Positions 637-34,600 of a stretch of DNA of 38,213 nt are shown here, piece by piece. The notes below the pieces were generated by a model. That model saw nothing but the letters and a program-made list of their open reading frames with translations. It did not search any database and was not told the DNA's origin. The stretch covers positions 1-38,213 of the IMG/VR virus record IMGVR_UViG_3300005747_001045; one strand, written 5' to 3'. The first letter of the stretch is position 1, and the number at the start of each line of letters is the position of its first letter. Both the position numbers and the translations under genes were made by a program. The stretch comes from a virus.

Positions 637-1062
637 ATGCCAAATTTTGATAGTAGTAACACTAACAACAGTAAACGAGCAAATAGAATCTATAAAGACT
701 TGGATTTGAATTTTGGTCGTAATGTAGTAACAGGTGATGTAAATAAGTTAACCGATGTAGAGGCCGTTAAAAGAAGTGTTAGAAATTTAATTAATACTTC
801 TCATTTTGAGAGACCTTTTCACCCAGAAATTGGCAGTGATGTTAGAAGAATGTTATTTGAACCAATGACACCTCTTACAGCACTTAACTTACAAAGAAAA
901 GTTGGCGAAGTTCTAAATAATTTTGAACCTAGAATAAAATTAGTACAAATTTTAGCTAGTCCAAATTTAGATAGAAATAGTTATCATTTAACAATTATGT
1001 TCTATGTTATAGGTTCATCGGAGCCAATAACAGTAGAAACATTTTTAGAAAGATTAAGATAA
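637..1062 (+). CDS. 25: baseplate wedge protein gp25
   Basis: A 141-residue protein of the gp25 / GPW-gp25 family (T4 gp25 is 132 residues). The N-terminal ~25 residues are polar. The core has the family pattern: RNVVTGDVNKLTDVEAVKRSVRNLI, then the conserved ERPFHPEIGSDVRRMLFEP stretch (about residues 69-87, with the family EPR-type wedge residues), then FEPRI and a C-terminal strand. gp25 is the small wedge protein that links gp6 and gp53 and is related to T6SS TssE. gp6 follows after one base, and a late promoter lies just upstream. The ATG has no ribosome site. Confidence 0.93.
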   Translation: MPNFDSSNTNNSKRANRIYKDLDLNFGRNVVTGDVNKLTDVEAVKRSVRNLINTSHFERPFHPEIGSDVRRMLFEPMTPLTALNLQRKVGEVLNNFEPRIKLVQILASPNLDRNSYHLTIMFYVIGSSEPITVETFLERLR

Positions 1063-1063
1063 A

Positions 1064-2905
1064 ATGGCAAGCAATAAACTAGTAGTATCTGATTTTGACT
1101 TTGATAACATAAAATCAAATTTAAAAACATTTTTACAAAATCAACCAGAATTTTCAGACTATAATTTTGAAGGATCAGGCTTTGCCGTTCTTTTAGATAC
1201 ATTAGCATACAATACACACTATCTTGGCTTCAATGCTAATATGTTGGTTAACGAAACTTATTTAAATAGTGCAGATATAAGAAAAAATATAGTTGCATTA
1301 GCAAAGATGATAGGATATACACCATCATCTGTTAGAGCGCCAGTATCAACTATTGACATAACAGTAAACAACGCTTCAGGTTCAAGTATCTTAATGAACA
1401 AAGGTACAACGTTTACAAGTTCAGTAGATGGTACAAGTTATAACTTTTTAACTAACGAAGATATTACAATTACGCCTTTAAATGGTGTTTATAAATTTTC
1501 AAACGTTAATTTATATGAAGGTACTTTAGTTACTTTTAAATATACAGTTGATAGTACAGATACAGATCAAAAGTATATAATACAAAATTTAAATGCTGAT
1601 ACTTCTACTTTAAAAGTAACAGTTCAAAACTCTGTATCAGATTCAACATTAAACACTTACACATTAGCTACAGGTTTAAGAAATATAACAGATACATCTA
1701 AAATTTACTTCTTACAAGAAACAGATAACGGTAAATTTGAAGTTTATTTTGGTGATGGCGTTATTGGTAAAAAATTAGAAGATGGTAACATAGTTATATT
1801 AGAATATATTGTTACAAACAAAGATGAGGCTAATGGAGCTAAAACTTTTGAGTTAGCTGGTAGTATTGGTACTTTTAATAATGTAACTATATCTACTAAA
1901 GCAAATGCTCAAGGCGGATCAGAGGCTGAAACAAAAGAGTCTATAAGATTTAATGCACCTTTACAATATACATCACAAGACAGAGCAGTTACAGCTACAG
2001 ATTATGAATCAATAGTTAAGACATTATATCCTAATGCGTTATCTGTTAGTGCTTGGGGAGGAGAAGACGATGAAACACCGGTTTATGGTGTTGTGAATAT
2101 CGCTATCAAAGCAGCTTCAGGTTCTACTTTAACAGAAACAACAAAAGCCTCTATTGTAAAAGAATTAATACCTTACAACGTAGCTTCAGTTAGACCAATA
2201 ATAGTTGATCCAGAAACAACATCAATTGTATTATCAAGTGTTGCTAAGTATGATAAAAAAGGTACTAGTAAGTCTGCCGACACTATTAAGTCAGAAATAG
2301 TTACGGCTGTTACAAACTATAACACAACTACTTTACAAAAATTTGATGGTGTGTTTAGATTTTCTAAATTAACAGGTTTAATAGATGATGTTGATACAAA
2401 TATACTATCTAACATAACAACTATTAATATGAGAAAGAATTTTACACCAACTATAGGGTCTTCAACAAAATACGATGTGTATTTTAGAAATGCAATTTAT
2501 AATCCTCATTCAGGTCATTCAAGTGTTTTATCATCAACTGGTTTTAAAGTTACAGGCAGTGATAACGAAATGTTTTTAGATGATGATAGTAATGGTAACG
2601 TTAGAAGATATTATCTAGTGAGTGGTGTTAAAACTTATGCTAATAATACACAAGGTACTATTAATTATGAAACAGGTCAAGTTACTTTAAATTCATTAAA
2701 TGTAGCTTCAATATCAAATATAAGAAATGCTGTTTCCACCGTTATTGAAATTACAGTTAAACCAAATTCAAACGATATTGTGCCTGTTAGAAATCAAGTG
2801 GTAGAAATAGACGTTACAAACTCAAATATAACTGTAGAGGAAGATACATTTGTTGGTGGTTCATCTGAAGCCGGCGTAGGCTACAATACTACAACAAGTT
2901 ACTAA
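1064..2905 (+). CDS. 6: baseplate wedge protein gp6 (baseplate J-like)
   Basis: A 613-residue protein (T4 gp6 is 660). The N-terminus (SDFDFDNIKSNLKTFLQNQ, followed by a FxGSGFAVLLDTLAYNTHYLG segment near residues 36-57 and an ETYLNSADIRKNIV segment) is the typical gp6/baseplate_J start in T4-like phages. A central FGDGVIGKKLEDG motif near residue 230 and a TATDYESIVKTLYPN motif near 312-326 are also diagnostic of the baseplate J fold. gp6 forms the continuous ring around the hub that drives sheath contraction. The ATG lies two bases after the gp25 stop, suggesting translational coupling. No frameshift or truncation is apparent. Confidence 0.93.
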   Translation: MASNKLVVSDFDFDNIKSNLKTFLQNQPEFSDYNFEGSGFAVLLDTLAYNTHYLGFNANMLVNETYLNSADIRKNIVALAKMIGYTPSSVRAPVSTIDITVNNASGSSILMNKGTTFTSSVDGTSYNFLTNEDITITPLNGVYKFSNVNLYEGTLVTFKYTVDSTDTDQKYIIQNLNADTSTLKVTVQNSVSDSTLNTYTLATGLRNITDTSKIYFLQETDNGKFEVYFGDGVIGKKLEDGNIVILEYIVTNKDEANGAKTFELAGSIGTFNNVTISTKANAQGGSEAETKESIRFNAPLQYTSQDRAVTATDYESIVKTLYPNALSVSAWGGEDDETPVYGVVNIAIKAASGSTLTETTKASIVKELIPYNVASVRPIIVDPETTSIVLSSVAKYDKKGTSKSADTIKSEIVTAVTNYNTTTLQKFDGVFRFSKLTGLIDDVDTNILSNITTINMRKNFTPTIGSSTKYDVYFRNAIYNPHSGHSSVLSSTGFKVTGSDNEMFLDDDSNGNVRRYYLVSGVKTYANNTQGTINYETGQVTLNSLNVASISNIRNAVSTVIEITVKPNSNDIVPVRNQVVEIDVTNSNITVEEDTFVGGSSEAGVGYNTTTSY

Positions 2906-2913
2906 TTTAGCCA

Positions 2914-5529
2914 ATGGCAAAATTTGATAATAAAATATCCAACTTAATAAACACTCAATTACCAGATTTTGTTGTTGACGATCACCCAAAATTTGTAGAA
3001 TTTCTAAAAACTTATTATCAATTTATGGAAGCTGCCGAGTTAGGCGTAACTTCTATTGAATCTACAGACGGAATTAATTTAGAAAATCAAACAGGCGTAC
3101 AAAACAATTTAGTATTAAATGGTGGTTCACTTGGTGCTGAAAATACTCAATTAGACCTTGGTGATAAGATAATATTAGAAGATAGTAGTTTTGGTAAATT
3201 TACATATAGAGAAACTATAACAGGACAAACTTCTAAAGCAACAGCTATAATATTAGCTGAAGATTTAGATTTAAATAGACTATTCATAACATCACAAGAC
3301 AAATTTATAACAGGTGAAATTATTAAAGGAGAAAGTTCTAACGCTGAAGCAATTGTTAATACATACAGACCTAATCCTGTTCAAAGTATTCAACAATTAA
3401 CAAATTTTAGAGATCCAGATAAAGTTATTTCTCAATTTTTAGATAATTTTAGAAATGAGTTTTTTAAAACTATTCCAGACAATTTATCTTCAGGAATAAA
3501 CAAAAGAAATTTAATAAAAAATATAAAATCTTTATATAAGTTAAAAGGTACACAAAAAGGTCACGAAGTATTTTTTAGAATACTTTTTAACAATCAATCT
3601 GAAACATTTTATCCTAGAGAACAAATGTTAAAAGTATCAGATGGTAAATGGAATACACAAACAGTTTTAAGAGTATTAAGTACACAAGGAGAAACTTTAA
3701 GTTTAATAGGAAGACAAATAAAAGGAAGAACATCAAATGCAACGGCAATAGTAGAAAATGTTGGAAAATTTTATGTTGGCGCTGATGAAGTTTCTGAAAT
3801 TACTATAAACAAAAAAAGTCTTGTAGGTACTTTTGCTGTAAGTGAAACTATAGAGGGTACTGAAAGTGATCAGTCAGATTATTACATTCTAGCTACTATT
3901 ACAGGTGTACCAGGAACAAAAACAATTAATAATGATGGTAATCTTTATACTACAAACGATTTAATAACAATTTCAGGAGGAGGTCAACAAGCCTCTATGC
4001 AAATTAGTGATGTTGGTTCTGGTAAAATAACTGAAATAGTTGTTGATAATGGTGGATCAGGATACGAAATAGGAGATACTTTATCTTTTAATAATACAGG
4101 TACTTTTGGTAGCAATGCTTCAGGTGTTGTTACAGTTGTTAACGGTGCAGTTTCTAATGAAGATACTGATCATATTGTACTAGAAGAAGAAACATCTGCC
4201 GGTGATCATCTTACAGGAGATAAAATTGTTTTTGAATCAGGAACAGGTATAGGAGATATTACAGATATTTATTTAACAAATGGTGGTGACGGTTATAAAT
4301 CTTTACCAACTGTTACTGTAACGTCTGATTCAGGTACAGCTTCGGAAATATTAGCATATGGTGATAACGTAGGAAGAATTTTGGGAATAACAACATCAAA
4401 TTTAGGTATTAAATACGAAAACTCTCCTTCTCCATCTTTAGCATTCATAAACAACTTATTTTGTACTACAGTTACAGGTACATTTACTAATGGAGATACA
4501 GTTACAGGTGGTAATTCAAGTGCTACAGGATTAGTTTCAGGTTGGGATTCTTCTAGAAACATATTAAAATTAAAAGAGGTTTCAGGAACCTTTCAAGCAA
4601 ACGAAACAATAACATCTGTATCAGCTAGTGCAGTGCTTAAAAATATAGATGTAGCTTCAATAAGTTTAGATGTAACTGCTGTAGTAGACACAGACGGAAA
4701 ATTCTTAAATGAAAAAGGTCATATTTCAGAAACTACAATGAAAGTACAAGATAGTTTATATTATCAAGATTTTTCTTATGTATTAAAAGTAGGTAACTCA
4801 ATTAATTCATGGAGAGACGCATTTAAAAAAACAATGCATACTTCAGGTTTTTATTTTACAGGACAAGTTAATTTAGAAAGTAGATTAGATTTAAAAAATA
4901 GAATAGCGCAGGCTGTTAATACAGGTGTAGACGGAACGCCTATAAAACAAATGTTGAGTTTGTTGTTTAGTTCTATGTTTGGTAGAAAATTGGGAACAAT
5001 AGATGATAGTTCTAGTTTAAGATCAAATCCTCAACAAGACGTTTCTTCTTATGGCACCAATACAAGAGCTGTAACTTTAAGACGAGAACCTATTGGTGTT
5101 AAACTAAATTTAAGATTAAGAAGAAAAGTTGGAACAGGTATACTACCTGATTTAAACAGTATTAATATAAGTCAAGGATTTGCATATTGTGGACCAAGTT
5201 TTGGTTCAATAAACAAATATGCTAATACAGCATATGGTGTCACTGGTAATAGATCAGGTGGTATCAATGGTACAACTGGTATTACTTTTGCAGTTTTAAA
5301 TGATTTAAAAATAACTGGTACTAGATCAAGTCTAGACGGTACACCAGCATTATTAAAAACGATAACTAACAATGCCGGGGGTGGACCAAATGAAGATGAT
5401 TTTGCAAGGATGTTAAAGACCAACTTTACTTTTCCAGCAGATATTACATTCCCAGGAGAAGAATCGTTTAGTGGTACTACCAATAAATTTGATAGCACAA
5501 ATGAAAAATTTGATCAAACAAACGTATAA
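2914..5529 (+). CDS. large baseplate wedge structural protein, gp7 position
   Basis: An 871-residue virion protein. The N-terminus (LINTQLPDFVVDDHPKFVEF, residues 11-30, followed by a YYQFME motif) is a conserved module of large tail proteins next to gp6 in marine T4-like phages. The middle is rich in Gly, Thr and Ser beta repeats, including four copies of a GxTSxAxAIV-type unit (about residues 101-112, 138-148, 269-279 and 528-540) and GGxGYxxGD/GGDGYKSLP turns. The C-terminal region has an NPQQDVSSYGTNTRAV segment and ends in Phe-rich NKFDSTNEKFDQTNV. The position matches T4 gp7, but homology to gp7 cannot be shown by eye. It is co-oriented with gp6, with an eight-base gap. Confidence 0.7.
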   Translation: MAKFDNKISNLINTQLPDFVVDDHPKFVEFLKTYYQFMEAAELGVTSIESTDGINLENQTGVQNNLVLNGGSLGAENTQLDLGDKIILEDSSFGKFTYRETITGQTSKATAIILAEDLDLNRLFITSQDKFITGEIIKGESSNAEAIVNTYRPNPVQSIQQLTNFRDPDKVISQFLDNFRNEFFKTIPDNLSSGINKRNLIKNIKSLYKLKGTQKGHEVFFRILFNNQSETFYPREQMLKVSDGKWNTQTVLRVLSTQGETLSLIGRQIKGRTSNATAIVENVGKFYVGADEVSEITINKKSLVGTFAVSETIEGTESDQSDYYILATITGVPGTKTINNDGNLYTTNDLITISGGGQQASMQISDVGSGKITEIVVDNGGSGYEIGDTLSFNNTGTFGSNASGVVTVVNGAVSNEDTDHIVLEEETSAGDHLTGDKIVFESGTGIGDITDIYLTNGGDGYKSLPTVTVTSDSGTASEILAYGDNVGRILGITTSNLGIKYENSPSPSLAFINNLFCTTVTGTFTNGDTVTGGNSSATGLVSGWDSSRNILKLKEVSGTFQANETITSVSASAVLKNIDVASISLDVTAVVDTDGKFLNEKGHISETTMKVQDSLYYQDFSYVLKVGNSINSWRDAFKKTMHTSGFYFTGQVNLESRLDLKNRIAQAVNTGVDGTPIKQMLSLLFSSMFGRKLGTIDDSSSLRSNPQQDVSSYGTNTRAVTLRREPIGVKLNLRLRRKVGTGILPDLNSINISQGFAYCGPSFGSINKYANTAYGVTGNRSGGINGTTGITFAVLNDLKITGTRSSLDGTPALLKTITNNAGGGPNEDDFARMLKTNFTFPADITFPGEESFSGTTNKFDSTNEKFDQTNV

Positions 5530-5544
5530 ATATAACTATAAATA
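5525..5544 (+). promoter_or_regulatory. tandem T4-type late promoters before the fibre gene
   Basis: Two TATAAATA octamers, 5525-5532 and 5537-5544, lie just before the ATG at 5554. The first overlaps the stop codon of the preceding gene. With T4 spacing, starts near 5538 and 5550 give leaders of about 16 and 4 bases. The ribosome site is weak (AAGATAG). Confidence 0.55.
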
Positions 5545-5553
5545 AAGATAGAA

Positions 5554-6822
5554 ATGGCAAAACAAACAATATCAATCGGTTCAACTCCAAATGACGGCAC
5601 AGGCACTACTATTAGAGCTGGTGGAGATATAATCAACGATAACTTTAACGAAATTTATACTAATTTTGGAGACGGTACTAATTTAGTTTCTGGTATAATT
5701 ACTGGTAAAATTGAAGGTACAAATTTTTCTAATAGTATCATCGTTGGTCACTCTACAACAGGAACACTAAACGACGCTAATACAAATACTGCTATTGGTT
5801 TAGCAGCTATGGATGCCATAACTTCAGGAGATGGAAACACTGCCATAGGTTATGAATCGGCTACTAGTTTACAAGATGGTCAAGATAATATTTCTATAGG
5901 TAAAGCAACATTAGCGAGTGCAACATCGGCTACAAATAACGTAGCTGTTGGAAGATCAGCTTTAAATGCCAACTTAACATCAACAAATAATACTGCTGTA
6001 GGTCATGAAGCAGGTAAATTAGTAACAGGAAGAAATAATACTTTAATAGGTGCTGAAGCTGGAGATAATATTACAACAGGATCAGGAAATGTAATTATTG
6101 GAAATTCAGATGCAGATTCAGCTACAGGCGATAGACAAATGGAAATTGCAGGATTTGATGGATCAACACATACAGTTTGGTTAAAAGGAGATAGTACAGG
6201 TGAGGTTACTGTAACAATGGATCCGGTCTCAGTTTTAGGTGTTGCAACTAAGCAATACGTAGATAATACAGCAGCCGGTTTAAATGTACACGAATCAGTT
6301 GCAGTTGCAACTACACAAGATTTAGCTACCGAAACAGGTGGAACAGTTACATATGATAACGGAACATTAGGTGTTGGAGCAACTTTAACATTGAGTTCAG
6401 CTATGTCAACTTTAGACGGTTACAGTTTAGTAAATGCAGATAGAGTTTTGGTTAAAAATGAGGCAAATCAAGCACATAACGGAATATATGTAAGAACGAG
6501 TTCAACAGTTTTAACAAGATCAACAGACTATGATCAAGTTTCTGATGTTCAATCAGGAGATACTGTTTTTATAGTAAACGGAACAGTAAACGAAAACAGT
6601 ACTTTTGTTCAAACAAATGCAATGGTTACTATGGGTACCACTAATATTACTTGGTCACAATATGCTAAAGCAGGAACAGGTACTATGTCTACTCAAAATG
6701 CAAATAGTGTCAATATTACTGGTGGATCAATCAGTTTATCAGCCGTTTCAAATACTCAAAGTCTACTGATAAAAGACTCTAGTGGTTCAACATTAAAAAC
6801 AATTTATGGAACATCATCATAG
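5554..6822 (+). CDS. tail fibre / baseplate appendage protein with YadA-like head repeats
   Basis: A 422-residue protein. The N-terminus (ISIGSTPNDGTGTTIRAGGD, then INDNFNEIYTNFG, residues 6-39) is the recurring attachment module of fibre-like proteins in marine T4-like phages. Residues about 76-184 hold about six copies of an NTAIGxxA/NxAVGxxA unit like the trimeric autotransporter (YadA/Hep_Hag) head, so a trimeric left-handed beta roll is likely. An ATKQYVDN motif near 230 starts a further fibre module. The last ~20 residues, LLIKDSSGSTLKTIYGTSS, are nearly the same as the end of the protein at 14631-15167. Likely a virion surface protein; no receptor or enzyme function can be read. Confidence 0.72.
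   Translation: MAKQTISIGSTPNDGTGTTIRAGGDIINDNFNEIYTNFGDGTNLVSGIITGKIEGTNFSNSIIVGHSTTGTLNDANTNTAIGLAAMDAITSGDGNTAIGYESATSLQDGQDNISIGKATLASATSATNNVAVGRSALNANLTSTNNTAVGHEAGKLVTGRNNTLIGAEAGDNITTGSGNVIIGNSDADSATGDRQMEIAGFDGSTHTVWLKGDSTGEVTVTMDPVSVLGVATKQYVDNTAAGLNVHESVAVATTQDLATETGGTVTYDNGTLGVGATLTLSSAMSTLDGYSLVNADRVLVKNEANQAHNGIYVRTSSTVLTRSTDYDQVSDVQSGDTVFIVNGTVNENSTFVQTNAMVTMGTTNITWSQYAKAGTGTMSTQNANSVNITGGSISLSAVSNTQSLLIKDSSGSTLKTIYGTSS
5779..6105 (+). repeat. in-frame NTAIG / NxAVG head repeats
   Basis: About six degenerate repeats of 14-18 residues built on N-T-A-I-G or N-x-A-V-G followed by a variable loop (examples NTAIGLAAMDAITSGDG and NTAVGHEAGKLVTGR). At DNA level the copies differ, so the repeat is maintained as protein structure and is not a recent DNA duplication. 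Confidence 0.7.
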
Positions 6823-6829
6823 GAAGTAT

Positions 6830-6837
6830 TATAAATA
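6830..6837 (+). promoter_or_regulatory. T4-type late promoter before the gp8-like gene
   Basis: An exact TATAAATA in the 27-base gap between the fibre stop (6822) and the ATG at 6850. The predicted start is near 6843 and the leader about 7 bases. The only AGGA (6837-6840) overlaps the last promoter base and would lie upstream of that start site. Confidence 0.55.
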
Positions 6838-6849
6838 GGAATAACAATT

Positions 6850-8319
6850 ATGCCAGCGATAATAACAAATAAATTTAGAATTAATAATAGTGAGCAGTTT
6901 CACGAATCTTTCACAGAAGCTTCTCCAAATATTTACTATCTAGGTCTAGCAAGACCACAAGCTTATGGTACATTTACAAGAGGTGATGGCCGAACAGATT
7001 ATGAAGGAACAGACACAAATCCAGTAACACCAAGTGATACTGTAGTTACAGAATTTTCTGCTTTTGATGACTTATTAGCTGCTAAAAAAATTACAAGTTC
7101 AGATGTTAGTTTTGCAGTACCAAGAAGAAATTGGACAACTGGAACAACATACGATATTTACAGACACGACTATGGAGAATTTGTTACAGGTAGTACTTTA
7201 ACAAGAAATACAGCTAATAGTGGTGCAATAACTTTACATGACGCTAATTTTTATGTATTAACTACAGATAGAAATATCTACAAGTGTATTGACAATGACG
7301 GTAATACTGCTTCAACAATAGAACCAACAGGAACAGGTAATGCTGTTATAACAACTGCTGATGGTTACAAATGGAAATACATGTACACTATGTCAGCTTC
7401 TCAACAATCAAATTTTTTATCAACTGACTTTATGGCAGTTTCAACTAACTCAACTGTTAGTTCAGCCGCTATAGATGGTTCAATTGATTGTATTAGAATT
7501 AAATCAGCAGGTTCAGGTGGAACAGACGGAACACATTCAGTAACAATTAAAGGTGATGGATCAAGTGCAACAGCTAATGTTGTAGTTTCAGGTGGTATTA
7601 TTACAGAGGTAACTATGACTAACGTAGGATCAGGTTATACTTTTGGTACAGTTTCAAACGCAGAAATAGTAACTGCTGGTGCAACAAACTTAACAGGTGC
7701 AGAATTAGATGTGATTATATCTCCAAAAGGTGGTCACGGTTTTAATGCAGTACAAGAATTAGGTGGTTTCTTCGTAATGTTAAATATAAATTTAGAAGGA
7801 GCAGAATCAGCAAACTCTGGAGATTTTCATGCTGGTAATGACTTTAGAAAAATTTGTTTAATCAGAGATCCAAAAGCTTCAGGTTCAGCTGCAAGTGCTT
7901 CAACTTTAAGAGGTACTAAAGCAGTAAGACTAGCAGCTTCTCCTACACCAGGAACATTTACAGTTGACGAAGAAATTAATCAAGCAACTACAGGCGCTGT
8001 CGCTAAAGTTGTAGAGTGGGACGCAACAAACAGAATTTTATATTACATTCAATCAAGACATAATGACGCCGGCGTTGACGCTAATGGTAACTTGACAGCT
8101 ATTTCTAGTACTCATGTAATTACTGGTCAATCGTCTTCAGCAACAGGAACGCCAGACACAAGCGTTTCGGCAACAGTTAACAATGTTGTATTTTCAAGTG
8201 GGTATTCTGCTTCTGAAATAGATCATGACTCTGGCGATGTATTGTACATAGAAAACAGAGCACCTATTCAAAGAGCAACAGACCAAACAGAAAATATTAA
8301 ACTAGTTATTGAGTTTTAA
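6850..8319 (+). CDS. 8: gp8-like baseplate wedge structural protein
   Basis: A 489-residue protein whose N-terminus (MPAIITNKFRINNSEQFHESF, then NIYYLGLARPQ, to about residue 35) resembles the start of gp8-annotated wedge proteins of marine T4-like phages. T4 gp8 has 334 residues, so this one carries extra length: a Gly/Ser/Thr-rich insert near residues 215-290 and a TVDEEINQATTGAVAKVVEWD repeat unit near 370-390 shared with neighbouring structural proteins. gp8 is the wedge protein that binds gp7 and gp10 in T4. It follows the fibre gene and precedes the DUF4815 giant. The gp8 assignment is from N-terminal recall and position only. Confidence 0.62.
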   Translation: MPAIITNKFRINNSEQFHESFTEASPNIYYLGLARPQAYGTFTRGDGRTDYEGTDTNPVTPSDTVVTEFSAFDDLLAAKKITSSDVSFAVPRRNWTTGTTYDIYRHDYGEFVTGSTLTRNTANSGAITLHDANFYVLTTDRNIYKCIDNDGNTASTIEPTGTGNAVITTADGYKWKYMYTMSASQQSNFLSTDFMAVSTNSTVSSAAIDGSIDCIRIKSAGSGGTDGTHSVTIKGDGSSATANVVVSGGIITEVTMTNVGSGYTFGTVSNAEIVTAGATNLTGAELDVIISPKGGHGFNAVQELGGFFVMLNINLEGAESANSGDFHAGNDFRKICLIRDPKASGSAASASTLRGTKAVRLAASPTPGTFTVDEEINQATTGAVAKVVEWDATNRILYYIQSRHNDAGVDANGNLTAISSTHVITGQSSSATGTPDTSVSATVNNVVFSSGYSASEIDHDSGDVLYIENRAPIQRATDQTENIKLVIEF

Positions 8320-8330
8320 AGGGAGATATT

Positions 8331-11300
8331 ATGCCAAGTCCAACAGACTTTAATCTTTCACCTTACTACGATGACTTTAATGAAACAAAGAAGTTTCATA
8401 GAGTTCTTTTTAGACCTGCTTTTGCAGTACAAGGTAGAGAGTTAACACAATCACAATCTATTCTACAAAATCAGATTGAGAGATTATCAGATCACGTCTT
8501 TGAACAAGGCGCTATGGTTATACCTGGCGATATCAGTTATGACTTAAATTACTATGCAGTAAAATTAACTTCGTTTACAGACTCAGCTGGTGTAGGTGTT
8601 ACATTAAACGATTTTATTGGTTTAACATTAACAGGCGCTTCTTCAGGTGTAAAAGCAAGAGTTGTTAATGTTGTAGCAACAGATGGTACTGACCCCAATA
8701 CTTTATTTGTAAAATATTTAAATTCAGGTACTAATAATACATCAACTGCTTTTTCAGCAGAAACAATTTCAGTAAATACTACTTTACAATCTACATCAAC
8801 AACAGTTTCAGCAGTAGTATCTTCTACAGCAACAGGTAGTGCAGCTTCAGTTAAAGAAGGTGTTTACTATATAAATGGTTATCATGTTAAGGTAAGTGAT
8901 CAAAATTTAATACTAGACAAGTATACAAACACACCATCTTACAGAGTAGGTTTAACAGTAACAGAAAGTTTCGTAACTCAAAACGATGACGTAACTTTAA
9001 ATGATAATGCTCAAGGAGTTTCAAACACAAATGCTCCAGGTGCTCATAGATTTAAAATAGATTTAACATTAACTAAAAAATCATTAGCTGCTACAGATGA
9101 CGCAAACTTTGTAGAGTTGCTAAGATTAAAAAATGGTATTATTCAAAACCAAGTTAGAACAACTGAATATGCAGTATTAGAAGATACTTTAGCAAGAAGA
9201 ACATTTGATGAATCTGGTGATTATGTAGTAAAAGACTTTGATATAGATTTAAGAGAACATTTAATTTCAGGTACTAATAGAGGTATCTACACTTCAAGCG
9301 ATGGTGGATCAGAAAGTAAAATTGCTGCTGGTATGGAATCAGGTAAAGCATATGTAAAAGGTTATGAAATAGAAACTTTAGGTACTACTTTTGTTGATGT
9401 AAATAAAGCAAGATCATTTGATACACAAAATAATTCTACTACTAGATTTGATGTAGGTAACTTTGTAAATGTAAATAATGTTTACGGTTCTCCAGACATA
9501 GGATTTGTATCATCTGGACCTGTTGCAGCTTTTAAAGAAGTAAATTTATATAAAGAAAAAACAGCTGTAAGAGGAACAGAAAATGCAGGATCAGGTTCAA
9601 ATATAAAATCAGTAGGTCATGCTAAATCTAAAGGATTTCAATATGTTTCAGGTAATGCTGTTAGTGGTGCTTATTCTAGTTCAAGTGCAACAGAAAATGT
9701 ATTCAGACATTATCTATTTGATGTTGTTATGTTTACTCATATCAACGTTGCAAAAAATCAGGCATTTACAAATGGAGAAGAAATTACAGGTGGTACTTCA
9801 GGTGCCAAAGGTACTGTTGATCAATTATCAACAAGCAATCAATATTCAATTACAGGTGCAACAGCGGCTAATCCTGTAGTTATTACTGCTACAAACACTT
9901 TACAAGACGGTCAACAAGTGACAATCAACAGTGTTGGTGGTATGACAGAATTAAATGGTAACACTTATACAGTTAAAAATCCAACTAGTTCAAATTTTGA
10001 ATTAGATGTGGATGGTTCTTCTTTTACCACGTATACAAGTGGTGGTACAGCAGATCAATCAGTTGTAGTATTATATAATGTATCAGGAACATTTGTACCA
10101 GGAGAAACTATAACAGGTGGTATTTCATCTAACACTGCTACTATTCAAGCAGACGCTAGAGGCTTTAAAGGTGTCACTTCATATGATTTCTCATCTACAA
10201 AACAAATTGGTATGCCAGGTACTCCTACATACACAGCAGATACAATTTTAGATAGTACAAACGGAGAAAGTTTACAAATTACAGGTACATTATCTATTGC
10301 AAACAGTAGTACAACTGTTACAGGTTTCGGTACTAAATTTAATACAGAATTAAGATTAGGTGATTCAATTACATTTACTACAGACGCAGGTTCTTCAATA
10401 ACAAAAATTATTGAGGCAATTGTTTCAGATACTTCTTTAGAATTATCATCAGCTGTTGGTGGTTCAGACGTATCAACTAAATCAAATGCAACTAGAAATA
10501 GATCAACACTTAAAGATACAAATAAAAATATTTCTATATTTAAGTTACCATATGAAACAGTTAAAACATTAAAAACAGCTTCAAACTCTGGTGCTAGTGA
10601 TACAAGTTTTAAAGTTAGAAGACAATTTGTAAAAACATTAACTGGAAACGGTGACGAAACTATTTCAGCAGGAACAGACGAGACATTTGCTTCTTTATTA
10701 GATTCAGATTTTTCAGTTTCAATTATGTCAACTGGTTCTGGTGGATCAGGTGCAGTAGGAGATTTTTTATCTTTACAAGGAAACAACCACGAAGGAAACC
10801 CTATATTTACATTAAGTGGTTCTCCAACAGGAAAATCTTTAGTATTAGACTTTGGTGCTAATTATGCAGGACATAAAATTAAAATTTTAGCAACAGTTAA
10901 TAGAGCTGTTGTAGAAGAAAAATCAAAAGTTTTAGTACAAAATGCAACGAGAGCCCACACTTCATTAGCAGATATTAAAAAACAAGGTGGTATGAGATTA
11001 GGCAAAAGTGATATTTACAAATTAAATTCTGTTAAAATGGCAACTTCTTTTGGTACTTATTCATCTTCAGGAGAAATTGATATTACAGATAGATTTACTT
11101 TAGACAATGGACAAAGAGATAACTTCTATGATATAGGTAGAATAACTTTAAATAAAGGCGCAGTAGACCCAACAGGTTCTATTCAAATTGACTTTGATTA
11201 TTTTTCTCATGGTTCAGGAGATGTTTTCACTGTTGATAGTTATTCAGGAGTTGTTGACTATGCAGATATTCCTTCTCATACTTCGGATACGACAGGTGAA

Positions 11301-14300
11301 GTTTATGAATTAAGAGATTGTTTAGATTTTAGACCTAGAGTTGATGATAACTCTACAATCAATAAAGGAGAAGTTGACAGATATTATAACGGTGCTGGTG
11401 CTTCAACAGTTGATGTTGTTAAATTTGGTACTGATATAACTTCAGATTTAGAATACTATTTGCCAAGAATAGACAAGGTGTTTGTAGATAAAGATGGTAA
11501 ATTTAAAATATCTGAAGGATCAAGTGCATTAGTACCTCAATCTCCAAAAAATTTAGATGGTGCAATGCATTTATACACATTAGATATACCAGCATACACA
11601 CTTGACACAGCAGATATTACAATTACAAAAGTTGATAACAAACGTTACACTATGAGAGATATTGGTAGATTAGAAAATAGAATTGAAAACATTGAATACT
11701 ATACTCAACTTTCTTTATTGGAAATGCAAGCTCAAAACTTGCAAACACAAGACGCTCAAGGATTTGACAGATTTAAAAATGGCTTTATAGTAGACAATTT
11801 TACAGGACATAGTATAGGTGATGTAAGAAATTTAGACTACAAAGTATCAATGGATATGGCAAGAGGTGAAGTTAGACCTATGTTTAATGAGGATGCCGTA
11901 CAATTGATTGAAAGTGATAATGACGGAACTACGATTACTTCGGCTGATAGAACGGATGCCAAGTATGCAAAAACAGGAGATTTAATTACATTACCTTATA
12001 GTGAGGCAACTTTAATTGATCAACCATTTGCTAGTAAATTTGTTAACGTAAACCCATTTGATATTTTTAGTTGGACTGGTTCTATTGCGTTAACACCTCC
12101 GTCAGACGAATGGAAAGAAACAGAAAGAGCACCTGAATTAGTTGTTAATAGAACAGGTGGCTTTGACACGTTAGTACAAAATTTAGGAAATCCTAATCTT
12201 TCAAGTGTAGAGATAGGTACTATATGGAATGAATGGCAAGAACATTGGTCAGGAACACCAACAGTAACAAGTTCAAGAGTTTTAGGACAACATAGAGTGG
12301 GTAGAAGAATTGTACAAAGAACACAAGAAACTTTATCTGGTCAAATGTCTAACACTAGAACAGGTATTAGAACAAGAATAGTACCACAAGTAATAAGAAA
12401 TTCAATAGGCGACAGAGTTGTTAGTGTTGGTATTGTTCCTTTTTTAAGAAGTAGAACATTAACATTTAGTGCTACAAGAATGAAACCTGAAACAAGAGTT
12501 TATCCTTTCTTTGATAATATTGATATATCAAGCTATATTACACCAACAGGTGGTTCATTAGGTGGAAATTTAGTTACAGATATTAACGGTGCTGTATCAG
12601 GTACTTTTGCAATTCCTGACTCAAAAAATAATTCTAATCCTAGATGGAGAACAGGTACAAGAGTATTCAGATTAACTTCTTCATCAACAAATGTATTAAG
12701 TACAGCAGTTGAAACTTCAGGAGAAGCAGACTACTTAGCCAAAGGTGCTTTAGAAACAATACAAGAAACAATTATTTCTACAAGAGAGCCTTTGACATTA
12801 AGAGAAAGTACAGTTGAATCAGTTAGTTTAGGAAATAGAACAAGTACAAGAAATGTAGATACTACAATAGGTTGGACAGATCCATTAGCACAAACATTTA
12901 TGATAGATGATATTGGTGGTGTATTCTTAACTTCAATGGACTTATTCTTTAGTTCAAAAGATGACAATATTCCAGTAACAATACAAATTAGAGAAGTAGT
13001 AAATGGTTATCCAGGAAAAAGAATAGTTCCTTTTTCTGAAAAAACTTTAAATCCAAGTGCAGTGTCAACAAGTACAGACGCAACAACGGCTACTACATTT
13101 ACTTTTGATTCACCAATTTACTTACAAGAAAAAACAGAATATTGTTTTGTTGTGTTGTCTAACTGTAATGCTTACAACTGTTATGTTGGAAGATTGGGTG
13201 AAAAGGTAATAGGATCAGATAGAACAATTTCTCAACAACCATATGCTGGTGTTATGTTTAAATCACAAAACGGTTCTACATGGACAGCTGAACAAAACGA
13301 AGATATTAAATTTAAAATTAAAAGAGCAGAATTTGAAAATGTTACAGGTACAGTTACTTTATGTAATGATGATTTACCTGTTAGAACATTAAAAAATAAT
13401 GCATTAAGAACAACAAACAGTTCAGGTGTAATTAGAGTTTCGCATCCCAACCACGGTATGCATGGTACATCAAACAATGTCACAATTGCTGGAGTTCCAT
13501 CAGGTACCTACAATGGTATTGCTCATAATCTTATTAATGGAACATATACAAGTATTTCTAACGTAACTTTAGATAGTTATGATATAACTACTACAGGAAC
13601 GGCAAATGCTACTGGAGATATAGGTGGTGACGTTATAACAGCAACCCAGAATAGATTGTATGATGTACTAAACTTAAATCTACAAACAGTAAATGTTCCA
13701 GGTACAAATATCTCTTATGATATGAGACCTACTACAGGTAGATCAATACATGGCACAGAAACAGAATTTAGTTTAACGTCAGCTGATAGTCCAGTTGCTA
13801 CAATTTCAAATGACAATATTTACTTTACAGCTCCTCAAATGGTCGCTAGTACAATCAATGAAACAAATAAGATGGCAGGTAGTAAATCTTTATTTGTTAA
13901 CTTAACATTTACAACTACAAATACTAAACTTTCTCCTGTATTAGATATGCAAAGAGTTAGTGCATATGTAGTTCAAAACAGAATTAATAAAGCAACTACA
14001 AGTAATACACCTAATTATATTTCAGATATAGAAAGTTCAGGAACATCATCAGCGGCTGCTTATATAACTAAACCGGTTGTACTAGAAAACTTATCAACTG
14101 CTTTAGATGTTAGATTAACACAAAATGTAAGATCAACTTCAAATGTTAAATTATATTTCAGATTATCATCTTCGGAAGAATCTAGAAATATTTCAGACAT
14201 AGGCTGGACACCGTTCAACACAGCTGGAGAAGAAGACATAACTGTCACACCAGCAGAAAATGATGAAACGTATAACGAATACAAATATAGTGCAAGTGGC

Positions 14301-14405
14301 TTAACAGAATTTAATACTTTTCAAATTAAAATAGTTATGGAAGGAACAAACTCTGCTTATCCACCTATAATAAGAGATTTAAGAGGTATTGCATTGGCAG
14401 TATAA
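8331..14405 (+). CDS. giant DUF4815 virion structural protein (baseplate/tail fibre)
   Basis: A 2024-residue protein, the largest in the window. The N-terminus has the DUF4815 hallmark (LSPYYDDFNETKKFHRVLFR, then VQGRELTQSQSILQNQIER, residues about 9-51), found in large baseplate or fibre proteins of T4-like and other phages. Next come Gly/Thr-rich beta regions with GxTSGAKGTV-type units (around 8631-8672, 9772-9828 and 10099-10155), a conserved middle (YELRDCLDFRPRVDD near residue 1000, followed by a helical RDIGRLENRIENIEYYTQLS segment near 1110-1130) and a C-terminal beta-rich portion. A GGGAG ribosome site precedes the ATG. It may take the role of T4 gp10 or a long fibre, but this is inference from position and size. 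Confidence 0.82.
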   Translation: MPSPTDFNLSPYYDDFNETKKFHRVLFRPAFAVQGRELTQSQSILQNQIERLSDHVFEQGAMVIPGDISYDLNYYAVKLTSFTDSAGVGVTLNDFIGLTLTGASSGVKARVVNVVATDGTDPNTLFVKYLNSGTNNTSTAFSAETISVNTTLQSTSTTVSAVVSSTATGSAASVKEGVYYINGYHVKVSDQNLILDKYTNTPSYRVGLTVTESFVTQNDDVTLNDNAQGVSNTNAPGAHRFKIDLTLTKKSLAATDDANFVELLRLKNGIIQNQVRTTEYAVLEDTLARRTFDESGDYVVKDFDIDLREHLISGTNRGIYTSSDGGSESKIAAGMESGKAYVKGYEIETLGTTFVDVNKARSFDTQNNSTTRFDVGNFVNVNNVYGSPDIGFVSSGPVAAFKEVNLYKEKTAVRGTENAGSGSNIKSVGHAKSKGFQYVSGNAVSGAYSSSSATENVFRHYLFDVVMFTHINVAKNQAFTNGEEITGGTSGAKGTVDQLSTSNQYSITGATAANPVVITATNTLQDGQQVTINSVGGMTELNGNTYTVKNPTSSNFELDVDGSSFTTYTSGGTADQSVVVLYNVSGTFVPGETITGGISSNTATIQADARGFKGVTSYDFSSTKQIGMPGTPTYTADTILDSTNGESLQITGTLSIANSSTTVTGFGTKFNTELRLGDSITFTTDAGSSITKIIEAIVSDTSLELSSAVGGSDVSTKSNATRNRSTLKDTNKNISIFKLPYETVKTLKTASNSGASDTSFKVRRQFVKTLTGNGDETISAGTDETFASLLDSDFSVSIMSTGSGGSGAVGDFLSLQGNNHEGNPIFTLSGSPTGKSLVLDFGANYAGHKIKILATVNRAVVEEKSKVLVQNATRAHTSLADIKKQGGMRLGKSDIYKLNSVKMATSFGTYSSSGEIDITDRFTLDNGQRDNFYDIGRITLNKGAVDPTGSIQIDFDYFSHGSGDVFTVDSYSGVVDYADIPSHTSDTTGEVYELRDCLDFRPRVDDNSTINKGEVDRYYNGAGASTVDVVKFGTDITSDLEYYLPRIDKVFVDKDGKFKISEGSSALVPQSPKNLDGAMHLYTLDIPAYTLDTADITITKVDNKRYTMRDIGRLENRIENIEYYTQLSLLEMQAQNLQTQDAQGFDRFKNGFIVDNFTGHSIGDVRNLDYKVSMDMARGEVRPMFNEDAVQLIESDNDGTTITSADRTDAKYAKTGDLITLPYSEATLIDQPFASKFVNVNPFDIFSWTGSIALTPPSDEWKETERAPELVVNRTGGFDTLVQNLGNPNLSSVEIGTIWNEWQEHWSGTPTVTSSRVLGQHRVGRRIVQRTQETLSGQMSNTRTGIRTRIVPQVIRNSIGDRVVSVGIVPFLRSRTLTFSATRMKPETRVYPFFDNIDISSYITPTGGSLGGNLVTDINGAVSGTFAIPDSKNNSNPRWRTGTRVFRLTSSSTNVLSTAVETSGEADYLAKGALETIQETIISTREPLTLRESTVESVSLGNRTSTRNVDTTIGWTDPLAQTFMIDDIGGVFLTSMDLFFSSKDDNIPVTIQIREVVNGYPGKRIVPFSEKTLNPSAVSTSTDATTATTFTFDSPIYLQEKTEYCFVVLSNCNAYNCYVGRLGEKVIGSDRTISQQPYAGVMFKSQNGSTWTAEQNEDIKFKIKRAEFENVTGTVTLCNDDLPVRTLKNNALRTTNSSGVIRVSHPNHGMHGTSNNVTIAGVPSGTYNGIAHNLINGTYTSISNVTLDSYDITTTGTANATGDIGGDVITATQNRLYDVLNLNLQTVNVPGTNISYDMRPTTGRSIHGTETEFSLTSADSPVATISNDNIYFTAPQMVASTINETNKMAGSKSLFVNLTFTTTNTKLSPVLDMQRVSAYVVQNRINKATTSNTPNYISDIESSGTSSAAAYITKPVVLENLSTALDVRLTQNVRSTSNVKLYFRLSSSEESRNISDIGWTPFNTAGEEDITVTPAENDETYNEYKYSASGLTEFNTFQIKIVMEGTNSAYPPIIRDLRGIALAV

Positions 14406-17941: not shown

Positions 17942-17955
17942 AACATAATTTAAAC

Positions 17956-18849: not shown

Positions 18850-18874
18850 TTCTAATATTCCTTTCTAAATTTTT

Positions 18875-21136: not shown

Positions 21137-21152
21137 TTCACTCCTTTTCTTA

Positions 21153-21842: not shown

Positions 21843-21843
21843 A

Positions 21844-23367: not shown

Positions 23368-23391
23368 TTTATTCTCCATTCTTAATAAATT

Positions 23392-23399
23392 TATTTATA
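23392..23399 (-). promoter_or_regulatory. possible late promoter (TATAAATA) before the carbamoyltransferase
   Basis: TATAAATA on the minus strand overlaps the stop codon of the DUF59 gene. The predicted start near 23386 would give a leader of about 19 bases that includes the GGAG site of the carbamoyltransferase. In an AT-rich genome a single such octamer can arise by chance. Confidence 0.35.
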
Positions 23400-23763: not shown

Positions 23764-23766
23764 AAT

Positions 23767-30728: not shown

Positions 30729-31180
30729 AGACTTACCAGTACGATTTAGAAAAGATTAAAAAAGAGTTAGAAACTTTACCAGATTATAATAAACAATTAT
30801 ATCTACAAGGTTATTCTAAAGACATGGATCCTGAAGAAGGAGCTGGTAAAGGTTATGACGTAGATAAAGTAGAACACACATATACTGTTCCTTTATTTGA
30901 TATACCTTATATTAATAGTATAATGGAAGAACACAAACTTACTAGAACAAGATTGATGAGAATGAAACCTAAAGCATGTTATCTTTGGCATAATGACTTG
31001 ACACAAAGATTACATATACCAATAGTAACAAATGAACACTGTTTCTTATTACTAGATAATGATAGAATACACATACCAGCCACAGGAGAGGCGTATGTAA
31101 TAGACACTAGAAAAAAACATACAGCACTAAATTGTTCAAAAGAAGATCGTACTCATATTGTTGGAGGACTACCTTATTAA
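30725..31180 (+). CDS. 2OG-Fe(II) oxygenase, aspartyl/asparaginyl hydroxylase-like
   Basis: A 151-residue protein. CYLWHNDLTQRLHIPI gives the iron-binding H89-x-D91 and the adjacent R95/H97 region. GEAYVIDTRKKHTALN supplies the distal H132, and DRTHIVGG the R142 that would bind 2-oxoglutarate. This layout matches small Asp/Asn beta-hydroxylase-type cupins seen in T4-like phages. The substrate is unknown; a peptide or protein Asp/Asn/Pro, or a small molecule, is possible. It is cotranscribed with the YdcH-like gene and overlaps the next radical SAM gene by one base. Confidence 0.8.
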   Translation: MKTYQYDLEKIKKELETLPDYNKQLYLQGYSKDMDPEEGAGKGYDVDKVEHTYTVPLFDIPYINSIMEEHKLTRTRLMRMKPKACYLWHNDLTQRLHIPIVTNEHCFLLLDNDRIHIPATGEAYVIDTRKKHTALNCSKEDRTHIVGGLPY

Positions 31181-32481
31181 TGGATAATACATTATATGAC
31201 GCCGTTATTACATCACTGCCAGGAATGGATAAGGGTAAACCTGCACCTGGTCCTTCTTTTTTAAAAGGATATTTAGAACCATTAGGATTTAAAATTAAAG
31301 TTATAGATGGTAATCAATTAGATACTTTAGAAAATATACACAAAGAAATTGCAAAATATAAATTTAGATGGTTAGGTATATCTGTATTTTCTTTTATGCA
31401 AAAAGAAGATGGTTTAAAATTAGGAGAAAAATATGATAATGCTTTTTACGGAGGATCAGGTGTTGATATAAAATGGCCTTCTAAAAATTTTATAGTAGGA
31501 GAAGGAGAATATGCTGTACAAGAATTTTTAAAAGGAAATTTTGATTATCCTGGTATTAACGGAAGACTACCAAAACAGATAGAAAACATAGAAGATTTGC
31601 CACCACCAGATTATTCAGACGTAATAAAAGAACACAAATATGGCAGATTTATAATATCTGGTTCTAGAGGTTGTGTTAGAAATTGTACTTTCTGTGATGT
31701 TGCAAGTATCTGGCCAAAATTTAGATGGAAATCAGGTAAAAAAATTGCTGACGAAATACATAGTGTTGCTGAACATACTAAATCTGAAAAGATAGCATTT
31801 TCCGATTCATTGGTTAATGGTTCAATGAAACATTTTAGAGATATGGTTTACGAATTATCTATAAAAAAGAAAAAGGTAAAATGGGAAGGACAGTTTATTG
31901 TCAGAGCTGAAAAGACTTTTTCGCAAGAAGATTTTGATAATTTGGCAAACTCTGGTTGTAATGGTTTGGAAATGGGTATAGAATCAGGTAATGAAAGTGT
32001 TAGAAATCATATGAAAAAAAAGTTTACTAATGATGATATAAAATACTTTGTTACCAATTTAGGAGAAAGAAAAATTAAAATGAAGTTCTTACTGATTGTA
32101 GGATATCCTACGGAAACGGAAGAAATGTTTGAAGATACTATGCAACTATTAAGAGACTATGCAAAGTATTCACATTTAATCAGTGTATCTCACCACGTTA
32201 TGATGACTTTTGAAAATACACCTTTAGATTTTGAACATAGAGAATTGTTTGGTGGAGAATTTGGCTTCAAATGGAAAAATCAAAACTCCGATTTTGATAT
32301 AAGATTTCAAAGATTTATAAAACTTTATGAATTAGGAAACCAATTAGGTTATCAGTTTCAACAACATTGTATTGACAAAATAGAAAGATACAAATCTGAT
32401 AAACTTAATGAAAATAGAAAGTCTATAGGAATTGATCACCCTAGAAAGAAAAAAGTTAATTCTTTACATGTACAATCTTAA
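31180..32481 (+). CDS. B12-binding-type radical SAM enzyme
   Basis: A 433-residue protein starting MDNTLYDAVITSLPG. A GGAGG lies 12-16 bases before the ATG, which overlaps the upstream stop (TAATG). The N-terminal ~125 residues resemble a B12-binding domain (PGPSFLKGYLEPLGFKIKV, FRWLGISVFSF, then the FIVGEGEYAVQEFLKG element). The radical SAM motif CVRNCTFC (C165, C169, C172) is preceded by SGSRG, and GLEMGIESGNESV, MKFLLIVGYPTET follow. BchE/P-methylase-type enzymes use cobalamin for methyl transfer or ring formation. I see no DxHxxG motif, as in many base-off B12 radical SAM enzymes, so cobalamin binding needs proof. It converges with the BtuB-like gene, sharing TTAA. Confidence 0.8.
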   Translation: MDNTLYDAVITSLPGMDKGKPAPGPSFLKGYLEPLGFKIKVIDGNQLDTLENIHKEIAKYKFRWLGISVFSFMQKEDGLKLGEKYDNAFYGGSGVDIKWPSKNFIVGEGEYAVQEFLKGNFDYPGINGRLPKQIENIEDLPPPDYSDVIKEHKYGRFIISGSRGCVRNCTFCDVASIWPKFRWKSGKKIADEIHSVAEHTKSEKIAFSDSLVNGSMKHFRDMVYELSIKKKKVKWEGQFIVRAEKTFSQEDFDNLANSGCNGLEMGIESGNESVRNHMKKKFTNDDIKYFVTNLGERKIKMKFLLIVGYPTETEEMFEDTMQLLRDYAKYSHLISVSHHVMMTFENTPLDFEHRELFGGEFGFKWKNQNSDFDIRFQRFIKLYELGNQLGYQFQQHCIDKIERYKSDKLNENRKSIGIDHPRKKKVNSLHVQS

Positions 32482-34085: not shown

Positions 34086-34192
34086 GTTGAGTTTCCTTGC
34101 TCGTTGTATGGCCTAGGTGGCATTCGGAGTATAACCGTATCAAGTAATCTGGACGAATTTCACGTCACTTTCCCACTACACTTTTAGGCCAT
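34086..34192 (-). ncRNA. cobalamin (env8/Cbl-II-type) riboswitch in the btuB-like leader
   Basis: Read on the minus strand: P1 is an 8-bp stem (34185-34192 with 34108-34115, AUGGCCUA/UAGGCCAU). GUGGGAA and a GACG-UGAAAUU-CGUC hairpin (P4-like) follow, then GAAUGCCACC (34116-34125, the J6/3-side element). Downstream, a GAG/CUC hairpin (34089-34102) has a loop with CAAG (34096-34099) that can kiss CUUG (34141-34144) in L5. The Shine-Dalgarno AAGGAA (34093-34098) lies in that loop, and the ATG is at 34085. From memory the sequence is close to the env8 hydroxocobalamin riboswitch whose structure is known. Binding would hide the ribosome site and turn the gene off when cobalamin is abundant. Confidence 0.88.
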
Positions 34193-34207
34193 TGTTATAT
34201 ACTATAT

Positions 34208-34236
34208 AGTATATAATATTTTATCTAAAATGGCAA
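34208..34236 (-). promoter_or_regulatory. sigma70-type promoter for the riboswitch-btuB unit
   Basis: On the minus strand TTGCCA (34236-34231), a 17-base spacer and TATACT (34213-34208) form a good sigma70 promoter. Transcription from about 34201 would include the complete riboswitch, with its P1 beginning at 34192. Confidence 0.7.
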
Positions 34237-34258: not shown

Positions 34259-34600
34259 ATGGCTGGAATAGCAAACTTAACGATAGACCAAGGGTCCAAT
34301 TTTACATACGATTTAGAAGTCACTAATACCGATGGTACAGATTTTGATCTTACTGGATTTACGATGGTTGCTAAAATGTCTAAAGGTTATTCCTCTACAT
34401 ATCCTAGAACATCATTTACTTGTACAGTAACAAATCCTACAGAGGGTGTGGTAACTATAAGTTTAACTGCCGATCAAACAAAAGCTTTAAAGGCAGGTCG
34501 TCACGTATTTGATGTTGTAGCTACTCACGCTGATAGTACTGTTACTCGTTTATTAGAGGGTATTGTTATCGTAACTCCATCTGTAGTCAAATCTTTTTAA
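34259..34600 (+). CDS. small virion structural protein (Ig-like/BppU-like)
   Basis: A 113-residue beta-rich protein: IDQGSNFTYDLEVTNTDGT, FDLTGFTMVAKMSKGY, TCTVTNPTEGVVTISLTADQ, then an AGRHVFDVVAT strand and a hydrophobic C-terminus. The pattern D-L-T-G-F/Y-x-x-x-A-K is typical of small Ig-like or BppU-N-like phage tail/baseplate proteins. It stands alone between minus-strand cargo genes, with its own late promoter. The 3' end shares a TTAA with the convergent glycosyltransferase gene. Exact location in the virion unknown. Confidence 0.65.
   Translation: MAGIANLTIDQGSNFTYDLEVTNTDGTDFDLTGFTMVAKMSKGYSSTYPRTSFTCTVTNPTEGVVTISLTADQTKALKAGRHVFDVVATHADSTVTRLLEGIVIVTPSVVKSF

Follow-up and report, generated by a model that had tools for sequence, protein, structure and literature searches.

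The stretch of DNA analysed here (the window) is a virus record of 38,213 bases, classed as linear, which carries on its minus strand a short riboswitch aptamer and its expression platform in the leader of a gene for a TonB-dependent receptor, together with a neighbouring radical SAM gene and, beyond the riboswitch, a gene resembling those for tail-fibre assembly (Table 1). The latter falls just under the cut-off of the LtfC family (24 against 27 bits) and matches the PHROG for L-shaped tail fibre assembly with an E-value of 3.6e-19. Within the T4-like baseplate block, gp6, the head-closure gene and gp8 were recognised by family matches, while the gp25-like and VrlC-like genes were named by position according to the gene order of Pelagibacter phage Mosig. 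The gp6 protein of the window is 70% identical to that of Mosig (over 100%) and 54% identical to those of HTVC008M and of the OM43 phage Melnitz, and window and Mosig have a common order of baseplate genes, VrlC, an epimerase and then a variable island. The record thus combines T4-type baseplate genes with the gene order of a known T4-like pelagimyophage and is a fragment of a T4-like myovirus collinear with the SAR11 phage Mosig. From this kinship, together with the receptor homology described below, SAR11 or a bacterium ecologically close to it is the most probable host.

Table 1. Features of the window, with positions counted from its first base.
Feature	Position	Strand	Remarks
T4-like baseplate block (gp25-like, gp6, head-closure/baseplate, gp8, VrlC-like)	637..14405	+	marks the record as a myovirus
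Radical SAM enzyme, N-terminal Rossmann domain	31180..32481	+	runs towards the receptor gene, with a 4-nt overlap of the stops
btuB-like TonB-dependent receptor, 535 aa	32478..34085	-	Pfam Plug 64.9 bits; predicted fold nearest BtuB
P13 hairpin, expression platform	34089..34102	-	loop with CAAG and Shine-Dalgarno sequence
P1 closing helix	34108..34192	-	8 perfect pairs, 34192-34185 with 34115-34108 (from sequence)
AdoCbl-II (Cbl-II) riboswitch aptamer	34110..34190	-	RF01689, full model 1-81
L5 kissing-loop strand CUUG	34141..34144	-	nt 47-50; invariant in 9 distinct relatives
Sigma-70-like promoter (TTGCCA, 17 nt, TATACT)	34208..34236	-	expected transcript start near 34201
LtfC-like / tail-fibre-assembly-like gene	34259..34600	+	on the far side of the riboswitch from the receptor

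The variable island of Mosig is annotated with a nitroreductase, a MoaA-like (radical SAM) protein, a carbamoyltransferase, an aminotransferase and an Asp/Arg hydroxylase. That of the window (15202-30472) is similarly rich in radical SAM, NodU-like carbamoyltransferase and PseC/LegC-like aminotransferase genes, the NCBIfam scores of which fall under their cut-offs, and it probably serves surface-sugar modification. A nitroreductase-like ORF in this region (21153-21842, minus strand), named by its place in the Mosig order, has a very weak match (15.2 against 150 bits) to BluB, the lower-ligand synthase.

The original prediction, made from the letters of the sequence, had assigned the receptor leader to the Cbl-II riboswitches and had proposed an Infernal search of Rfam models as a check. 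When the whole window was scanned (cmscan) with all 4227 Rfam families, RF01689 was the sole match over its gathering threshold (75.2 against 36.5 bits, E 3.6e-17) and covered the full model, bearing out the proposed class. With RNA nucleotides numbered such that nt n corresponds to window position 34191-n, P1 pairs nt -1 to 6 with nt 76-83, GGGAA lies at nt 17-21, UGAAAUU at nt 29-35 and GAAUGCCACC at nt 66-75; these elements and the CUUG/CAAG partners were all found on the minus strand at the place predicted for them. The model for class I cobalamin riboswitches, RF00174, had no match in the window record; across 20 records tested it yielded none over its cut-off and four below it, none of these being the window. 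Plain minimum free energy folding misses the aptamer (z -0.14) and is uninformative, because nested, ligand-free folding cannot represent tertiary contacts. By its Rfam match the element is an AdoCbl-II (Cbl-II) riboswitch, for which cobalamin is the predicted ligand.

Downstream of the aptamer, the three base pairs of the P13 stem (GAG/CUC, nt 89-91/100-102) present the loop CAAGGAAA, in which CAAG (nt 92-95, 34099-34096) is complementary to the CUUG of L5 and overlaps the Shine-Dalgarno sequence AAGGA (nt 93-97, 34098-34094), located 8 nt before the ATG at 34085. The kissing partners envisaged by the original prediction, the second of which overlaps the Shine-Dalgarno sequence, can thus be read directly from the leader, and the env8-type arrangement of a P13 hairpin with the ribosome binding site in a loop complementary to L5 is kept in nine distinct relatives. 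Pairing was assessed for 26 proposed pairs in 13 related viral leaders (9 distinct): all 234 of 234 cells are paired, three P1 pairs and one P13 pair show changes on both sides, and pairings shifted by 1-3 columns form in 28-46% of cells. The P13 change is a compensated one, from GAG/CUC to AAG/CUU, in the divergent relative L049. The conserved pairs of the RF01689 helices are accordingly maintained among relatives, four of them with two-sided changes. As the four kissing-loop pairs are invariant across these leaders, covariation neither supports nor contradicts the kissing loop of this architecture. The promoter upstream agrees with the consensus at 10 of 12 positions and may have arisen by chance, as three such sites were found against 2.1 expected in shuffled sequences; its TTGCCA and TATACT boxes are also kept in the riboswitch-less relatives L072 and L073. 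In another relative, L066 (980-1056; also in L067 and L068), an extra structured element with an 8-bp stem is inserted between promoter and riboswitch; by eye it may form a pseudoknot, its folding z is about -2.4, and a comparison with Rfam gave a chance-level MS2 match only.

The kinship of this RNA with the env8 riboswitch was assessed at residues published for the latter, namely A9, G12, U13 and U69 (4FRN RNA; PMC12138973) and G19, A20 and A68 (PMC11838749; A20 and A68 also in PMC7689651). The window RNA is identical to env8 at all seven in the same numbering, a comparison that covers seven published positions rather than a full alignment and includes some bases conserved throughout the class. 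The relatives L007 and L066 likewise match at 7/7, and L018 and L049 at 6/7. These identities fit an RNA of the same subtype as env8 with the same spacing, support the kinship indirectly and are consistent with the original suggestion that the two RNAs may differ at only a few bases. The original prediction had also proposed that the natural context of env8 may be a phage, and had suggested a search of viral contigs; a 27-base signature of this form (type A) was found in 29 viral contigs and in none of 397 genomes of the SAR11 order.

The known RNA and that of the window (Cbl-II; PDB 4FRG and 4FRN for env8) are alike in aptamer, L5, P13 with the ribosome binding site in its loop and, as described for env8 and predicted for the window, translational repression, the L5-P13 kissing loop of env8 hiding the ribosome binding site (PMC10907184). 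They differ in that env8 is a marine-metagenome sequence of unstated host, whereas the window places the element before a btuB-like gene of a phage. Both A20 and A68 are present in the ligand pocket of the window RNA; since these residues block adenosylcobalamin in env8 (PMC7689651; their role also in PMC11838749), selectivity for methyl- or hydroxocobalamin is predicted for the phage switch. It could be argued that the switch is instead tuned to adenosylcobalamin, as the Rfam family name AdoCbl-II would have it, or that it is decayed and unresponsive, given that one loop base of the common CAAGGAGA is changed in the window to give the loop described above. This appears very improbable in view of the two blocking residues, the intact helices in all 13 leaders examined and the preserved AAGGA.

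The TonB receptor named as the target of the switch by the original prediction was confirmed by a Plug domain and a BtuB-like fold. Its AlphaFold2 model (pLDDT 82) comprises a plug and about 22 strands, and BtuB is the structure nearest to this predicted TonB-dependent receptor fold (Z 40.7, rmsd 2.0 over 474 residues), the best non-BtuB structure reaching Z 35.0; six of seven PDB sequence matches are also BtuB, the seventh being a TonB-dependent receptor. The best NCBIfam family is TIGR01779 (TonB-B12) at 95.3 bits, far below its equivalog cut-off of 599.7, and the BtuB equivalog NF007926 scores 86.8 against 836; heme-receptor families match as well, at lower scores. The divergent riboswitch-bearing relatives L018 and L049 score 173 and 167 bits for the TIGR01779 family, above the window receptor and still below the cut-off. 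On the basis of the model the protein is BtuB-like, though not to be named BtuB, and cobalamin import is its putative function. The locus resembles btuB of Escherichia coli in that a cobalamin riboswitch occupies the leader of a gene for a TonB-dependent receptor of this fold, but the E. coli switch belongs to class I (RF00174) and the window switch to Cbl-II, and the phage-encoded receptor is 22-23% identical to BtuB in the structure alignment.

Among the best 80 of 460 relatives of the receptor, the 19 best cellular matches are all from SAR11 (Pelagibacteraceae single-cell or MAG records, HIMB114 and SAG-MED05), mostly full-length and 30-35% identical. In a quick maximum likelihood tree of 87 receptors these 19 form one clade (support value 99) beside the main phage clade of 48 rows (100 for both jointly), and generic BtuB rows are remote from this pair. 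Outside the pair, but still on its side of the tree, are the five rows of the L209-214 type and the long-branched L049. Of the 19 SAR11 loci, 16 have RF01689 ahead of the receptor gene (3/6 and 13/13). A sample of 247 SAR11-order genomes contained it over the cut-off in 20. In 36 more (G161, G133, G110 and others) the match was weaker, at 24.8-35.9 bits, and these may hold a diverged group of cobalamin riboswitches. Most SAR11 are likely to be without RF01689, a statement limited to likelihood because many of the genomes are incomplete and the search filters were stricter.

Two architectures can be distinguished, the env8 form (type A) and a form with a conserved 3' extension (type B), which occurs in SAR11 and in the phages L075, L082 and L209-214. 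A type-B pattern scan returned nine matches, all of which hold the element, eight with a DUF6580-like frame downstream (by eye) and the ninth, L258, too close to the stored end to show one. The L5 strand and the 3' extension of type B are complementary, and one of the kissing pairs occurs as U-A (11), A-U (5) and C-G (1) in 17 sequences, which supports an L5-L13 contact in a way that the invariant type-A loop cannot. In P1 and the kissing pairs together, two-sided changes affect six pairs, and only 24-52% of cells remain paired after sliding; 10 of 17 sequences cannot form another of the proposed kissing pairs, and the count of pair types is not above that of shuffles (85 of 500 reach it). Examples of these extended SAR11-type elements are L209:5315-5448, L075:5829-5960 and L085:4800-4934. 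In some of them (L075 and L209, by eye) the CAGUGG-like end of the extension is complementary to bases just before the start codon, a hint of an alternative pairing. A reading by eye of the SAR11 and type-B elements as class I riboswitches was ruled out, as Rfam assigns them to AdoCbl-II and the RF00174 search described above gave nothing over its cut-off. The SAR11 switches (16 of L084-L102) are therefore like that of the window in having an RF01689 aptamer upstream of homologous receptors, yet they differ from its short env8 platform by the 3' extension and by an L13 far from the start codon, as do those of type-B phages. They also differ at pocket position 68 (window 34123), which is A in 13 of 13 aligned type-A phage rows and G in 17 SAR11/type-B rows; this suggests that host and phage switches differ in ligand preference.

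A relative of DUF6580 (PF20221) directly follows the receptor gene in 17 of the 19 SAR11 loci, and precedes the receptor in the phage loci L209-L211, L213, L214 and L049. It was detected in 18 of 20 SAR11 genomes with the riboswitch against 6 of the 20 first listed without it. In 40 SAR11 genomes FecCD (BtuC-type) matches are weak: 31 genomes have one, with scores of 18-31 bits that exceed the cut-off of 26.5 in 14 genomes and there by a narrow margin. Nearly all of these matches fall in frames of 267-279 aa, which we take to be another type of ABC permease, although a BtuC may be present. Given this adjacency, its co-occurrence with the riboswitch and the weak FecCD matches, DUF6580 is a candidate for the inner-membrane B12 transporter in SAR11; it is not mentioned in the open-licence literature searched. 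The same combination of receptor and DUF6580 relative, together with a convergent radical SAM gene from the family found in the window and an LtfC-like frame (by eye), was observed in L103, which is filed as the Flavobacteriaceae MAG NAT163 and is probably a phage contig in that bin.

TonB-dependent receptors commonly serve as phage receptors, and the phage-encoded protein might accordingly act in superinfection exclusion, in surface remodelling or on another ligand such as heme or a siderophore, with the B12 switch reflecting ancestry only. A TonB-receptor gene of the pelagiphage Skadi has indeed been read as adsorption-related (PMC10504331), and the missed TonB-B12 equivalog cut-off as well as the lower-scoring heme-receptor matches would suit such a role. 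We consider it quite improbable nonetheless, since BtuB is nearest in both fold and sequence, two different Cbl-II architectures control members of this gene family in phages, and in some phages DUF6580, whose gene comes after that of the receptor in SAR11, is present as well.

The distribution of the switch among viral relatives was examined from a protein scan, which gave 27 viral loci close to the window receptor, and from a scan with nine aligned receptors, which gave 134 matches, 80 of them kept as 79 loci. On whole records RF01689 exceeded its gathering threshold in 7 of 50 and 28 of 31, while control genomes showed a match in 4 of 14 and one over the cut-off in a single case. Counting the window and leaving out L045, where the gene is cut after few codons, 35 of 81 receptor-bearing viral records have RF01689 upstream of the BtuB-like gene (28 type A, 7 type B) and 46 have none, so that regulation by it is dispensable. 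Clustering at 95% receptor identity yields 27 clusters, of which five hold type A, four type B and 18 neither; switch-less members also turn up in two of the clusters that have a switch, one such member being L212, which begins only 175 nt upstream of the gene and therefore cannot show a riboswitch. A pattern scan returned 56 stretches, of which 22 are leaders with riboswitch and receptor and 34 were judged by downstream context to be chance; the type-A elements found lie in btuB-like leaders.

The L049 receptor is only 26-28% identical to that of the window, yet its aptamer is identical at 71 of 81 positions, and that of L018 at 72 of 81. The leaders of L164 and L167 agree through the promoter region and part at a single base, beyond which one runs into the riboswitch and ATG and the other has its ATG five bases past the -10 box; the picture is similar for L071 and the window against L072 and L073. 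Near relatives thus occur with and without the riboswitch behind the same promoter, which suggests that the riboswitch cassette was gained or lost recently among them. In the riboswitch-less leaders L072, L073, L166, L167, L171 and L176 the ATG follows the -10 box by a few bases, and the mRNAs of these receptor genes look leaderless. Among isolate phages five records (three Salmonella, two Acinetobacter) match the receptor with 34-39% identity over 19-21% of it, while the 161-nt leader is matched only by two records of Campylobacter phage CP21, over a 36-nt piece that precedes the aptamer.

The protein encoded convergently to the receptor is a radical SAM enzyme (Pfam Radical_SAM, 71.6 bits), and its score for the B12-binding domain PF02310 is below the cut-off (13.4 against 32.1 bits, E 0.069). 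Homologues that neighbour other receptors score 33.1 bits in G052 (a narrow pass), 46.2 bits for a 581-aa protein of G021, G023, G041 and G042 (a pass), which sits 2.7 kb away, and 17-31 bits in G036, G039, G032, G033, G054 and G080. The NCBIfam relatives of the window protein, all under their cut-offs, comprise many B12-binding radical SAM families, others being of MiaB/RimO types. Its structural model (pLDDT 83) has the N-terminal Rossmann domain and radical SAM core of the B12-dependent enzymes and aligns in both domains with MgmA (Foldseek E 3.7e-18), TsrM and OxsB, although a second aligner placed AprD4, MgmA and OxsB level (Z 26.4-25.7). AprD4 and MiaB share the radical SAM fold and are not known to use cobalamin, and therefore B12 use by the window enzyme is putative: it has the whole fold of the cobalamin-dependent MgmA, TsrM and OxsB, but differs from them in falling below the PF02310 cut-off and in being equally close to AprD4.

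Of 52 testable records, i.e. those with at least 2.5 kb on both sides of the receptor, 37 have a homologue of this enzyme no more than 4 kb away, 30 of them at a distance of up to 1.2 kb, and the other 15 have none in that 4-kb range; these counts do not represent independent events, since neighbours of this kind went into the profile and many of the records are closely related. The arrangement relative to the receptor varies between convergent, downstream, upstream and divergent, and 13 of the 19 SAR11 loci hold such a gene. Clustering of genes in a hypervariable island could unite receptor and radical SAM enzyme without a functional link. As another possible consumer of B12, a cobalamin-dependent ribonucleotide reductase was considered and rejected: NrdJ_Z matches 20 of 37 records, none over the cut-off, and class I NrdB is carried by all 10 phage records with an NrdJ_Z match and by 9 of 10 SAR11 genomes. 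The MetH activation domain was found in 0 of 37 (27 viral records and 10 SAR11 genomes). The viral records in these searches are mostly fragments.

These distributions bear on whether the receptor and its riboswitch are host-derived cargo in a hypervariable island, the switch working but its control being irrelevant to infection and of no benefit to the phage. Host-like sugar and radical SAM genes abound in the island, the riboswitch is missing from many relatives, and Mosig has no TonB receptor in the matching annotated stretch (46-92 kb) and gave no match when the window receptor was compared by tblastn with all phage records. Against this, the receptor clade is large and has been kept open over deep divergence, compensated changes preserve the RNA fold, and the radical SAM partner is retained in several arrangements; the absence of the env8-type signature from 397 SAR11-order genomes also argues against a fresh copy from SAR11. 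On balance such passenger status seems unlikely.

The literature searched (open-licence full texts) yielded no phage-encoded cobalamin riboswitch, and within it the original remark that such switches are rarely described holds. A riboswitch search in pelagimyophages found none (PMC7029224), and phage riboswitches are called rare, glutamine riboswitches and one cyanophage psbA case being named (PMC9004378). The latter source reports a glutamine riboswitch in Melnitz and, in the OM43 host of that phage, a single cobalamin riboswitch located before btuB, and cobS and cobT are mentioned in pelagimyophages elsewhere (PMC9599517). The glutamine riboswitches of pelagimyophages and Melnitz resemble the present case as riboswitches of related marine T4-like phages (PMC9004378), but differ in ligand class and in target, which is the tmRNA region, with no import gene named. 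The RNA class itself is known; what is new is its setting, a predicted B12-responsive importer module spread among SAR11-like phages.

We favour, with a probability of roughly 0.85, the reading that an env8-type Cbl-II switch of a phage translationally represses a BtuB-like receptor within a SAR11-related module for B12 supply. In an infected SAR11 or related cell, the leader would be transcribed from a host-type promoter. Where cobalamin is scarce the P13 loop would be free and the receptor translated, while binding of cobalamin, in the methyl or hydroxo form predicted from A20 and A68, would dock L5 on the P13 loop and hide the Shine-Dalgarno sequence, upon which synthesis of the importer would stop. 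Less surely, the imported B12 may feed the adjacent phage radical SAM enzymes of cobalamin-dependent fold, which probably act in the surface-polysaccharide gene island.

A broader reading, which taken as a whole we put at somewhat under even odds, is that env8 is natively an RNA of marine phages and that pelagimyophages carry a transferable, SAR11-related B12 module consisting of a Cbl-II switch of either architecture, a BtuB-like receptor, sometimes DUF6580, and a radical SAM enzyme of cobalamin type. The hosts would mostly be without this uptake gene, and the phage would draw B12 in on demand for its own enzymes; the short switch would be a mobile cassette, moving between, and being lost from, receptor genes that are otherwise leaderless. 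If this is true, a widely used model riboswitch would gain a natural host context and a phage would offer an instance of gene control that responds to a vitamin, linking an RNA switch to an importer of the outer membrane, to the DUF6580 membrane protein and to a radical SAM family. It would also allow one to ask by experiment, in the most abundant marine bacteria, whether phages provide B12 uptake of their own, and for which enzyme.
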